This document shows positions 56,828 through 60,122 of a stretch of 60,598 bases of DNA, piece by piece. The stretch is from contig CAMBUO010000007.1 in the NCBI GenBank assembly GCA_945871105.1, positions 1 through 60,598 on the forward strand. The letters run 5' to 3'. Made by a program: the position numbers and the translations under genes. The notes under the pieces are model-generated. The model saw only the letters and a program-made list of their open reading frames with translations. It made no database searches and had not been told where the DNA came from. Source of the DNA: an uncultured Clostridia bacterium. Its GTDB lineage: Bacteria; Bacillota_I; Bacilli_A; RF39; UBA660. How positions within the stretch are numbered: the first letter of the stretch is position 1; each line of letters opens with the position of its first letter.

Positions 56828-56855
56828 TTAAAAAGACTAATCTCTCGACTAGTCT
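56828..56855 (-). terminator. Terminator of rpsU
   Basis: AGACTA / TAGTCT stem with a 10-nt loop and a T5 run lies between the rpsU stop and the NUDIX SD. Confidence 0.7.
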
Positions 56856-57043
56856 CTATTATTTTTTTCACGTTTACGTGCATTTTTTATTCCAGCTTTT
56901 TTAGCTTCACGTCTTCTAACGCCTGGTTTATCGTATGCTTCTCTTTTTTTGAATTCAGAAGGGATTCCATCTCGTGCAACTTTTTGTTTAAACTTTCTTA
57001 AAGCCCCGTCTAGATTACCGTTTCTAACAGCAACATGTGTCAT
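56849..57043 (-). CDS. rpsU: 30S ribosomal protein S21
   Basis: A 64-aa basic protein. LDGALRKFKQKVARDGIPSEFKKREAYDKPG and the RRREAKKAGIKNARK tail are typical S21. The SD GGGAGGGAG is strong, and the promoter lies ~35 nt upstream. Confidence 0.96.
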   Translation of the reverse strand: MTHVAVRNGNLDGALRKFKQKVARDGIPSEFKKREAYDKPGVRRREAKKAGIKNARKREKNNRD

Positions 57044-57165: not shown

Positions 57166-57333
57166 TTACAGCAAATTAGAAGTAATTTCAAAAATATTTC
57201 TTAAAAATGTTCCATAATATTTTCCTATTTCTAAGATAACCCAAAACCAATATTTTAAGACAATAAAGCTAATTGGTATTAGAATAATTAATAACACGTA
57301 TCTAATTATATTATTATTTAATTTTAATTCCAT
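57166..57333 (-). CDS. Small membrane protein sharing a motif with the bacteriocin; candidate immunity protein
   Basis: A 55-aa ORF starting 1 nt after the stop of the second bacteriocin gene (TAAtATG), so translationally coupled. One TM helix spans ~residues 10-33 (IRYVLLIILIPISFIVLKYW). Next is WVILEIGKYYGTFLRNIFE, which aligns without gaps to VFKEIGQAFGSAIRR of the upstream bacteriocin. There is no GG leader. Position and topology fit a dedicated immunity protein, with the shared motif suggesting mimicry; a third, non-processed peptide is the alternative. Confidence 0.6.
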   Translation of the reverse strand: MELKLNNNIIRYVLLIILIPISFIVLKYWFWVILEIGKYYGTFLRNIFEITSNLL

Positions 57334-57334
57334 A

Positions 57335-57499
57335 TTACTTTATTTGACAAAGATTATGAGCAGTAAATCTTCGAATAGCACTTCCAAAGGCTTGACCAAT
57401 TTCTTTAAAAACACCTAAATAGCCTTTTAAAGCTGAAATAACGGCTCCACTTATAGTAGCTCCTCCTATAATATTTTTCATTTCTTCCTTACTTAACAT
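57335..57499 (-). CDS. Double-glycine leader bacteriocin precursor (peptide B)
   Basis: A 54-aa precursor with the leader MLSKEEMKNIIGG, ending in Gly-Gly for C39 peptidase cleavage. The ~41-residue mature part starts ATISGAVISALKGYLG, continues with EIGQAFGSAIRR (contains a G-x3-G) and ends NLCQIK with one Cys. It is amphipathic and cationic, as in unmodified class II bacteriocins. A perfect AGGAGGG SD is present. It is encoded 9 nt after peptide A, with exporter genes upstream. Confidence 0.8.
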   Translation of the reverse strand: MLSKEEMKNIIGGATISGAVISALKGYLGVFKEIGQAFGSAIRRFTAHNLCQIK

Positions 57500-57508
57500 A
57501 AAACCCTC

Positions 57509-57655
57509 CTAATTACATTTAACAGGTCTTGTAAACCCATCTAAAACACCTGAAATAAAAGCAATTGCTGAAGCAATCCCAAACATTGCTAATATCCAAG
57601 ATGATGCTGATCCTCCTTTAATATTTTTCATTTCATTAATTTTTAATTCTTGCAT
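57509..57655 (-). CDS. Double-glycine leader bacteriocin precursor (peptide A)
   Basis: A 48-aa precursor with the leader MQELKINEMKNIKGG. The ~33-residue mature part SASSWILAMFGIASAIAF... is strongly hydrophobic in the middle, has GxxxA-type spacing, and ends RPVKCN with one Cys. The leader shares EMKNI-x-GG with peptide B, pointing to the same exporter and perhaps a two-peptide (class IIb) toxin. The ATG directly follows the TAA of the accessory gene and uses AAAGGAG inside it. Confidence 0.8.
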   Translation of the reverse strand: MQELKINEMKNIKGGSASSWILAMFGIASAIAFISGVLDGFTRPVKCN

Positions 57656-58063
57656 TTAATCTTCTCCTTTCATATTTCTTAGTATAAATTTTAATAAAGT
57701 TTCTTCCTTAAAAACCAAAGGAATTTTTTTATTTTTAAAAATATTTATATTTTCCTTAAACTTTAATTCCAGATTATATTTTTTGTTTATTTCTTCAATA
57801 TTTATGATTTCATATTTAATTTTTTTATTATCAATAATTATTTCTTGACTATTTACTATCTTATTAAAGTTAAATAAATCTAAACTAGTAATTAATAAAG
57901 TATTATTAGTACTTAAACTATATTTTAAATCTAAACTATCTTTATTTTTAAACTTAAATAATTCTAAGCCAATAATTAATAGTATTATTAGAAGAAAAAT
58001 TAAATATAAACTAATTATTTTTCTAATCTTTAAATTATACTTATCAATCTCTTTAATAATCAT
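57656..58063 (-). CDS. Miniature HlyD-like bacteriocin secretion accessory protein
   Basis: A 135-aa protein with a short cytosolic start, one TM helix (~residues 15-36) and a ~95-residue outside domain of beta strands and Lys/Asn-rich loops ending KEETLLKFILRNM. The topology and operon position match the membrane-fusion accessory proteins of C39 ABC exporters, but it lacks the coiled coil and lipoyl-like parts (normal ~400 aa). It overlaps the exporter gene by 11 nt. Immunity is an alternative role. Confidence 0.6.
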   Translation of the reverse strand: MIIKEIDKYNLKIRKIISLYLIFLLIILLIIGLELFKFKNKDSLDLKYSLSTNNTLLITSLDLFNFNKIVNSQEIIIDNKKIKYEIINIEEINKKYNLELKFKENINIFKNKKIPLVFKEETLLKFILRNMKGED

Positions 58064-60122
58064 AAATAACTCCTTTATCTAATAAAACAAATTGTTGATA
58101 TAAATCTCTATTATTAAAACGATGACTAATAACAATAACTGTTTTATACTTTAAATAATCAAATAAATCTTTTAAAATATATCTTTCATTTTTAATATCA
58201 ATTGCACTTAAAGATTCATCAAAGATATAAATATCACTTTGTTTTACTAAAGCTCTAGCTAATAAAATTCTTTGTCTCTCTCCTCCTGATAAATTAGATC
58301 CATTGTTTTCTATTAACATAGAATCTTTTAAAATACTTCTTTTAATTATTTTATCAACACCGGTTAATTTTAAAATATTTAAATATTCTTGATAAGCTAT
58401 TTTATTATTTAAAACAATATTATTATAAATAGTATCTGTATATAAATATTCATCTTGGGATAAATAAGTTATTTTCTTTCGAATATCAAATAAATTATAA
58501 TAACTAAGTTCTCTATTATCAATTAAAATATCCCCTTCATAATTAGTTAAATACTTAACTAATAATTTCATTAAAGTACTTTTACCTACCCCACTTGTAC
58601 CATATAATAAAACTTTATTACCCGCGTTAATTTCTAAATTGTCACACTTTAAAATATTTTTAATATTATTATAAGAATATCTTAATTTAGAAAATTTAAT
58701 ATTTCCTATTAAATGATGATTAATATTTTTTAAATCAGGCTCTATTTTCTCTTTTGAAACATTGAATAATTCTTTAATTCGTAAAAAAGAAATACTTGCT
58801 TCTTTTAAAGATATTTGTAAAGAACTTAAATCTTGAATAGGATCAAAGTAATAAACTAATAAACTATTAAAAACCAATAAATTAGCTAAACTAAAATTAT
58901 TATTTAATACTTCATGAAATCCTAAATAAATAATAATTAATAAACCTAAACTATAGATTAAATTCTTTAAAAAGTTTTCTTGATAATATTTTCTTAATAA
59001 ACTAAAATTAGTATCTTGATAATCATGATATTTAACTAATAATTTATTTAATAAAGTGTCTTCTATTTGCATACCTTTTACAGTATTTATAGAAGTTAAA
59101 GATTCTATTAAATGATTATTGACAATTGATTCTTGTTCTTTTAAAGTTTTTAATTTTTTACTAATAATTAAGTTATAGAAATAATTAATTAATAAATAAA
59201 TTATAGTTAGAAAAATAGTTATTAAACCTAATTTTAAATTAATTTTTAAAATAACAACTAATAAAATAATAATCAAAACTAAATCAATTAATAATACACC
59301 AAGTAATTTACTAATAATATCGCGAATAGTAAATATATCTTGAATTCTAGTAACAATATCTCCTTTCGTATGATTTTGAAAATATAAATATGGAAGTTGA
59401 ATGATTTGTTCATATGTATCTTTTAATAAACTTTTATCAAGAATATGATTAATATAATTGATTAAGTTACTCCGAAATAAATTCGTTATTTCTTTTAAAA
59501 GAATAATACTTATTAAAAAGATAAATAAAAGTTGCATTGTCTTATTATTTTTATTATTTAATAAATCTAAGAAAAAAGAAAATTGGTAAGACATTATAAT
59601 ATTTGTAAGAGTATAAATTAAAGATAAGATAAATAGGATTAGGATAGTAATTTTATATTTTTTTACAAGAGGTAAGATGAGTATTTTTAAACCTTTTTCC
59701 TTATCTTGTTTTAAGATTTGATTTTTAGGTTTTAATAAGATATAAACATTAGTTGTTATTTTTTGAAATTCTTCTTTTGTTAATATTTTAATACCACAAC
59801 TTGGATCCATAATTGTAATATGTTTTGAAGTAACTTTCATAATAACAATAAAATGTCCTAAATTATTAATAATAACATGAGAAATTAAAGGTGTATCTTC
59901 TTTAATTGTTAAAATATCTCCTTTCATAGCTTTAGCTTCAAATCCTAAAATTTTACTACCTTCAACTAAATCATAAACACTTACTCCTTCTCTTGTTGTC
60001 TTAGTAATTTCTCTTAAATATTCTTTGGTAGCATAACCACCATAATATTTCATAATAGCCAATAGACATGCTACTCCACAATCTTTTAAATCAGTTTGTT
60101 TAACATATGATATTTTCTTCAT
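58053..60122 (-). CDS. Peptidase-containing ABC exporter for bacteriocin (C39 type)
   Basis: A 689-aa protein. The N-terminal C39 peptidase has catalytic Cys in LKDCGVACL, His in GHFIVI and Asp in MDPSCG, and cleaves Gly-Gly leaders. The TM domain (~residues 150-430) has about six helices. The ABC domain has Walker A LYGTSGVGKST, signature LSGGERQRILLARA, Walker B IYIFDE and a switch His (VIVISHR). It exports and matures the two peptides encoded downstream. The SD is CGGAGGGTGAA. Confidence 0.95.
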   Translation of the reverse strand: MKKISYVKQTDLKDCGVACLLAIMKYYGGYATKEYLREITKTTREGVSVYDLVEGSKILGFEAKAMKGDILTIKEDTPLISHVIINNLGHFIVIMKVTSKHITIMDPSCGIKILTKEEFQKITTNVYILLKPKNQILKQDKEKGLKILILPLVKKYKITILILFILSLIYTLTNIIMSYQFSFFLDLLNNKNNKTMQLLFIFLISIILLKEITNLFRSNLINYINHILDKSLLKDTYEQIIQLPYLYFQNHTKGDIVTRIQDIFTIRDIISKLLGVLLIDLVLIIILLVVILKINLKLGLITIFLTIIYLLINYFYNLIISKKLKTLKEQESIVNNHLIESLTSINTVKGMQIEDTLLNKLLVKYHDYQDTNFSLLRKYYQENFLKNLIYSLGLLIIIYLGFHEVLNNNFSLANLLVFNSLLVYYFDPIQDLSSLQISLKEASISFLRIKELFNVSKEKIEPDLKNINHHLIGNIKFSKLRYSYNNIKNILKCDNLEINAGNKVLLYGTSGVGKSTLMKLLVKYLTNYEGDILIDNRELSYYNLFDIRKKITYLSQDEYLYTDTIYNNIVLNNKIAYQEYLNILKLTGVDKIIKRSILKDSMLIENNGSNLSGGERQRILLARALVKQSDIYIFDESLSAIDIKNERYILKDLFDYLKYKTVIVISHRFNNRDLYQQFVLLDKGVIYDY

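Follow-up and report, generated by a model that had tools for sequence, protein, structure and literature searches.

Gene organization and candidate class IIb-like peptides

The window, the whole stretch of 60,598 nucleotides analyzed here, contains a run of genes on the minus strand from 60122 to 57166. They encode, in this order, an ABC exporter with a C39 peptidase, an accessory protein of 135 aa, two small peptides (A and B) and a third small protein, ORF3; rpsU follows. The individual features are listed below.

58053 to 60122, minus strand: peptidase-containing ABC exporter, 689 aa; C39 peptidase, membrane domain and ATPase (Pfam PF03412, PF00664 and PF00005, above cut-off)
57656 to 58063, minus strand: accessory protein, 135 aa; one N-terminal TM helix and a small β domain
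57509 to 57655, minus strand: peptide A, 48 aa; GG leader, hydrophobic helix and a GVLDGFTRPVKCN end with GxxxG and a single Cys
57335 to 57499, minus strand: peptide B, 54 aa; GG leader, helix with EIGQAFGSAIRR, and Cys at +16 from the first motif Gly
57368 to 57412, minus strand: motif copy in peptide B, residues 30-44, VFKEIGQAFGSAIRR, from a pattern search; G35 and G39 invariant, R43 and R44 near-invariant
57166 to 57333, minus strand: ORF3, 55 aa; basic N-terminus, TM helix and a C-terminal module like that of B; candidate immunity or partner protein
57196 to 57240, minus strand: motif copy in ORF3, residues 32-46, VILEIGKYYGTFLRN, from a pattern search
56849 to 57043, minus strand: ribosomal protein S21 (rpsU), an ORF; fixed downstream neighbor in the loci of the source's genus

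The exporter matches TIGR01193 with an E-value of 7e-108, yet the match is under the curated cut-off of this model. The exporter is expected to cleave the GG leaders of peptides A and B and to export both. The accessory protein adjoins peptide A on its upstream side in 149 loci, as judged by position. Its AlphaFold2 model (pLDDT 87) contains a helix at residues 2-37, followed by strands. A Foldseek search of the PDB with this protein (57656-58063) found no fold match at E ≤ 0.001. It is probably an export accessory protein, and possibly a reduced export adaptor.

Peptides A and B are encoded by two adjacent small genes, and both are precursors with double-glycine leaders. G12 and G13 of peptide B are invariant in 40 sequences. 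Each mature peptide contains GxxxG, at G36-G40 in A and G35-G39 in B, and in the family alignment of peptide A G36, D39, G40 and P44 are invariant. The C-terminal halves of both peptides are strongly conserved. One Cys near the C-terminus is kept in each, and a disulfide between A and B is possible. The co-evolution of A and B is strong: with the transporter distance removed, the partial Mantel r is 0.471, and none of 500 permutations was as high. Such co-evolution would be consistent with A and B needing each other for antimicrobial activity.

Comparisons with bacteriocin families gave matches under the curated cut-offs. Peptide A matches NF038034 (lactococcin G-beta) with an E-value of 1.8e-4, under the cut-off, and the leader of peptide B weakly matches NF038035 and PF10439. 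The scores with the lactococcin G subfamily models NF038034 and NF038035 are 21.7 and 19.8 bits, below the curated cut-off of 37. TIGR03949 is matched weakly by 4 of the 37 B members, the best at 9e-4. A PDB search with the profile of peptide B found chance-level matches only, and a search of the accessible literature on bacteriocins of this bacterial group found nothing relevant. The A-B cluster includes a dedicated C39-peptidase ABC exporter. The best label for the operon is class IIb-like with a toxin-like immunity candidate, and A and B would be the toxins.

ORF3 is a membrane protein gene directly behind the peptide genes, as in known class IIb immunity. In the window it starts 1 nt past the stop codon of B, and in most loci its start overlaps the B stop by 7-16 nt. 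This overlap is consistent with translational coupling of B and ORF3. AlphaFold2 predicts a single helix at residues 7-54 (pLDDT 90.8), a lone helix being uninformative about packing. The charge bias favors an orientation with the N-terminus inside and the C-terminus outside (N flank +2.6, C flank +1.0; 79/103). Only four columns are invariant in the genus alignment: G37, G41, F43 and R45.

ORF3 and 39 homologues fall into no Pfam or NCBIfam family, with scattered weak matches at most. By the features of LagC/EntI-type proteins, ORF3 has no sequence match to a known immunity family, and it has one predicted helix and is not multi-TM. We also considered and rejected an Abi (CPBP) metalloprotease, which is a multi-TM protein with EXXXR, FXXXH and an invariant His. 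ORF3 has 55 aa, contains no His and has no Pfam match.

Likeness between peptide B and ORF3

A preliminary description of this DNA had proposed that peptide B and ORF3 share an ungapped motif. A pattern search confirmed a single occurrence of V-x-x-E-I-G-x3-G-[ST]-x-[IL]-R in B, starting at residue 30, and another single one in ORF3, starting at residue 32, and found the pattern absent from peptide A. The best ungapped BLOSUM62 score of the window pair is 37, which was reached by 2 of 3000 ORF3 shuffles; this single-pair result is suggestive only. The exact EIGxxxG[ST] wording of the motif is specific to the source species, and across the family the motif reads [IL]G[RKQT]xxG[TS]x[IL]R.

We compared profiles of about 120 B and about 120 ORF3 sequences with hhalign. 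The B and ORF3 profiles score 39.2. The null maximum was 14.0 in 300 full column permutations and 17.3 in 300 permutations within thirds. The reversed profile scored 12.3, and 55-column windows of the co-encoded transporter from the same taxa scored no more than 14.8. HMMs of the two proteins (E cut 1e-3, Z=10,000) detect each other: the B HMM matches 13 of 139 ORF3 proteins (best 5e-6), and the ORF3 HMM matches 47 of 180 B peptides (best 1e-6). At the same cut and Z, there were no cross-matches between A and ORF3. The candidate relationship of peptide A to ORF3 via the GxxxG of A was rejected, as neither profiles nor HMMs gave any similarity.

The likeness is limited to the C-terminal ~22 residues, which score 28.7 where the nulls reach at most 14.7. 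No similarity links the two proteins in their N-terminal halves, with a score of 7.5 versus a null maximum of 8.0. Segments of 21 residues from the two proteins are 31.5% identical in register, versus 4-10% at other offsets. The likeness also extends beyond the motif of the preliminary description. All 179 B peptides scored have their Cys at exactly +16, counted from the first Gly of the motif. In the ORF3 tail, +16 is the commonest offset (33 of 139), +15 is next (16 of 139), and 60 of 139 contain no tail Cys. The closest pairs are alike along the whole tail. One example is locus L067, with NAGRSLGSAIRRAVSGTICPV in B and EAGRVVGTCMRLIMSGSFCLV in ORF3; another is L029.

ORF3 homologues without the motif, or similarity at chance level, had been named as findings that would speak against the proposal. 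GxxxG is present in 139 of 139 profile-detected ORF3 sequences and the R in 127 of 139, counts that are skewed upward because the search profile itself contains the motif. The B-ORF3 profile score is far above the nulls, and at the family level the proposal withstood this check.

The sequence comparisons support the view that ORF3 holds a B-derived helix module. Common ancestry of B and ORF3, or at least one reused module, is well supported by them for the C-terminal helix only. The earlier suggestion that ORF3 arose by duplication of the toxin can be kept in this restricted form. Whole-gene duplication of B is not supported, because the N-terminal halves are alike no more than the null. ORF3 may have originated as a copy of a B-like peptide, or as a B tail fused to another membrane helix. 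The shared segment is short, and convergence toward one partner is possible.

Peptide duplication does occur in this operon, as the gene order A1-B1-A2-B2 is found before rpsU in one locus (L226, G061:C2, 2378-2951). There the last B-like peptide stands where ORF3 would otherwise be; it retains a GG leader but not the Cys.

Distribution and co-variation

Peptide B is found in 357 of the 386 genomes and 144 of the 150 genera of the family, mostly as a single copy per genome. A class sample outside the family gave only weak leader-type matches to B. By a crude pattern, rpsU is located within 1 kb of the end of B in at least 89 of 165 loci. The A-B pair is almost a core gene set of the family, which is unusual for a bacteriocin.

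ORF3 homologues were found at first in 14 other genomes of the same genus and in five further genera, and then in 117 of the 386 family genomes and 66 of the 150 genera. A profile search with the genus-level ORF3 alignment found 9 loci, in MAGs of uncultured Bacilli. The order A, B, ORF3 is present in nearly all of about 130 loci inspected. Sixty B loci without a match to the first ORF3 profile were counted by eye. A wider profile recovers a full ORF3 in about 19 of them. By synteny, about 6 contain an ORF3 of 34-40 aa with a TM helix and GxxxG and no R, and about 35 have no recognizable ORF3, with A and B intact. Extrapolation gives an estimate of roughly half to 60% of B-bearing genomes with ORF3. 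No credible ORF3 match was found in any of the 20 listed genomes without B.

In loci L165, L166, L175, L185, L189, L193 and others, A and B are retained and ORF3 is missing downstream. In L168 and L171, ORF3 is shortened to 34-36 aa and contains GxxxG but no Arg. Because several genera that keep A and B have lost or shortened ORF3, a role for it as the sole obligatory immunity protein is disfavored. One further locus (L009, G031) has B and ORF3 but no recognizable adjacent peptide A and no downstream rpsU, and the frames on the other side look unrelated.

Alignment of homologues for co-variation between the two motifs had been suggested as a check, and it yielded little. Identity between B and ORF3 of the same locus is slightly above that of shuffled pairs (0.197 versus 0.181; 13 of 2000 shuffles as high), a comparison uncorrected for phylogeny. 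With the transporter distance removed, the B-ORF3 signal is weak (partial Mantel r 0.086; 23 of 500 permutations as high). Since the corresponding value for A and B is 0.471, A and B act like partners, and B and ORF3 resemble an old split.

Proposed role of ORF3 and known systems

Our leading interpretation, to which we assign a probability of roughly 0.4, is that ORF3 is a self-protection protein that mimics B and blocks the active A-B complex. It builds on computed features, namely the shared module, its conservation, the operon position, the gene overlap and the predicted helix and orientation. ORF3 would be co-produced with A and B, as all three are encoded in a single operon. Its basic N-terminus would stay inside, with one helix spanning the membrane. 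Within the membrane of the producer, the outward B-like GxxxG-R end would then meet peptide A, either alone or paired with B. This pairing would be unproductive, and no active A-B complex would form there. We infer here that A and B are toxic, that A binds ORF3 via the module, and that the cell is protected thereby.

Several results favor mimicry. B and ORF3 are linked by the profile match and by HMM cross-detection, and A and ORF3 by neither. The residues of ORF3 conserved in the genus are those of the motif, and the Cys offset of +16 is common to B and commonest in ORF3. ORF3 is directly behind B, with an overlapping start and a charge bias toward N-inside/C-outside, and the 20 listed genomes without B gave no credible ORF3 match. 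In addition, the helices of class IIb peptides pair through GxxxG, and class IIb immunity proteins are membrane proteins from the same cluster with little mutual similarity (PMC6957408, PMC8538875). Mimicry is weakened by the loss or shortening of ORF3 in genera with A and B and by the weak B-ORF3 covariation beyond phylogeny. It is also weakened by how common GxxxG is in helix packing, and by B being single-copy and near-universal.

Immunity by mimicry or co-assembly, as the preliminary description proposed, would fit the position, coupling and topology of ORF3. The reuse of the B helix in ORF3 suggests that the producer may be shielded by an imitation of its toxin. A new immunity principle for two-peptide bacteriocins is plausible. 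Stated in full, the immunity protein would be a membrane-tethered form of the C-terminal helix of one toxin peptide, with the Cys included in many species. It would occupy the place of that toxin next to the partner peptide, and it would be encoded in a near-core operon of a large, uncultured family of gut Bacilli. We put this full statement forward tentatively, and its chances are below even.

The strongest alternative is that the operon is no weapon. A, B and ORF3 would then belong to a conserved system of this family that is passed on vertically and acts in the envelope or between cells, with ORF3 as a partner or receptor of the exported pair. Because the near-universal presence of B is atypical of a bacteriocin, a non-killing role has to be considered. 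B is present in nearly all genomes and genera of the family, mostly once each and often beside rpsU, with weak leader-type matches only elsewhere in the class, and the C-terminal halves of A and B are strongly conserved and co-evolving. However, the leaders, the C39 exporter, the paired helical peptides and GxxxG are all class IIb-like, and family-wide toxins can exist. We regard this alternative as somewhat unlikely.

The same module, coupling and predicted C-outside orientation would also be expected if ORF3 acts as a surface anchor or as the third structural partner. Pairing with A via the B-like module, it would retain the exported peptides at the outer face of the producer's membrane or assemble them there, for contact-dependent action or presentation, and would neutralize nothing. 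Loss of ORF3 in clades with A and B would be easier for an accessory partner than for an obligatory immunity protein. Caulobacter Cdz has surface-retained glycine-zipper peptides, although the small TM protein there, CdzI, is the immunity protein (PMC5380434). Where such systems have been studied, a small TM protein encoded after two toxin peptides is mostly an immunity protein, and an anchor is unlikely.

ORF3 could also be an ordinary immunity protein that acts on a putative receptor. It would contain a B-like helix since both bind the same receptor, by convergence or module reuse. Contact with both the receptor and the peptides is assumed for immunity proteins like LagC (PMC8538875), and B and ORF3 are unrelated in their N-terminal halves. 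The matching Cys offset and the HMM matches exceed a few interface residues, which makes this explanation improbable. Finally, a mere common GxxxG packing motif, with no shared origin or functional meaning, is very improbable: the motif is widespread, the similarity is short and A has GxxxG too yet is unrelated to ORF3, but the profile score of 39 compares with at most 17 in 600 permutations and 14.8 in transporter TM windows, and the mutual HMM matches and matching Cys offset already disfavor it.

As a candidate immunity protein, ORF3 bears on a general question, as two sources describe the mechanism of class IIb immunity proteins as unknown (PMC6957408, PMC8538875). Its sequence points to a partner, a contact face and two or three testable residues, so that the question would become directly testable. 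The near-core spread of the operon in an uncultured gut family raises another question, whether such peptide pairs always serve killing.

The operon resembles those of lactococcin G and enterocin 1071 in its two adjacent GG-leader peptides with helices and GxxxG and in its C39 ABC exporter with an accessory protein. In each case the peptide pair is followed immediately by a third gene, for a membrane protein. Unlike ORF3, the ORF in the immunity position of enterocin 1071 is ~125 aa, multi-TM and without GxxxG, and so contains no toxin-like module. The A-B pair also differs from both systems in being nearly universal in a family, with peptides under the subfamily cut-offs. ABP-118, taken as a small-immunity control, has no small ORF behind the peptides in its plasmid record. 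Lactobin A/cerein 7B (TIGR03949) and peptide B have in common a GG leader and a small glycine-rich helix. In contrast, no tested B member is over a curated cut-off, and the literature searched reports no toxin-like immunity protein for these bacteriocins. More generally, our literature search, with many subscription papers outside its reach, found no report of a class II immunity protein sharing the helix of its toxin.

Caulobacter Cdz has, like this operon, two small GxxxG proteins (CdzC and CdzD), dedicated ABC export and a small TM protein from the same operon; in Cdz this protein, CdzI, gives immunity (PMC5380434). It differs in its type I secretion and Gram-negative host, and the accessible part of that source reports no sequence likeness of CdzI to CdzC/CdzD (PMC5380434).

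The yeast K1 killer toxin differs from ORF3 in that one gene and the eukaryotic secretory pathway are used, with no separate bacterial membrane paralogue. The producer's own toxin precursor serves there as immunity. As in the role proposed for ORF3, protection is tied to the producer's own toxin, and it is directed against a pore-forming toxin (PMC7021474, PMC5705960).
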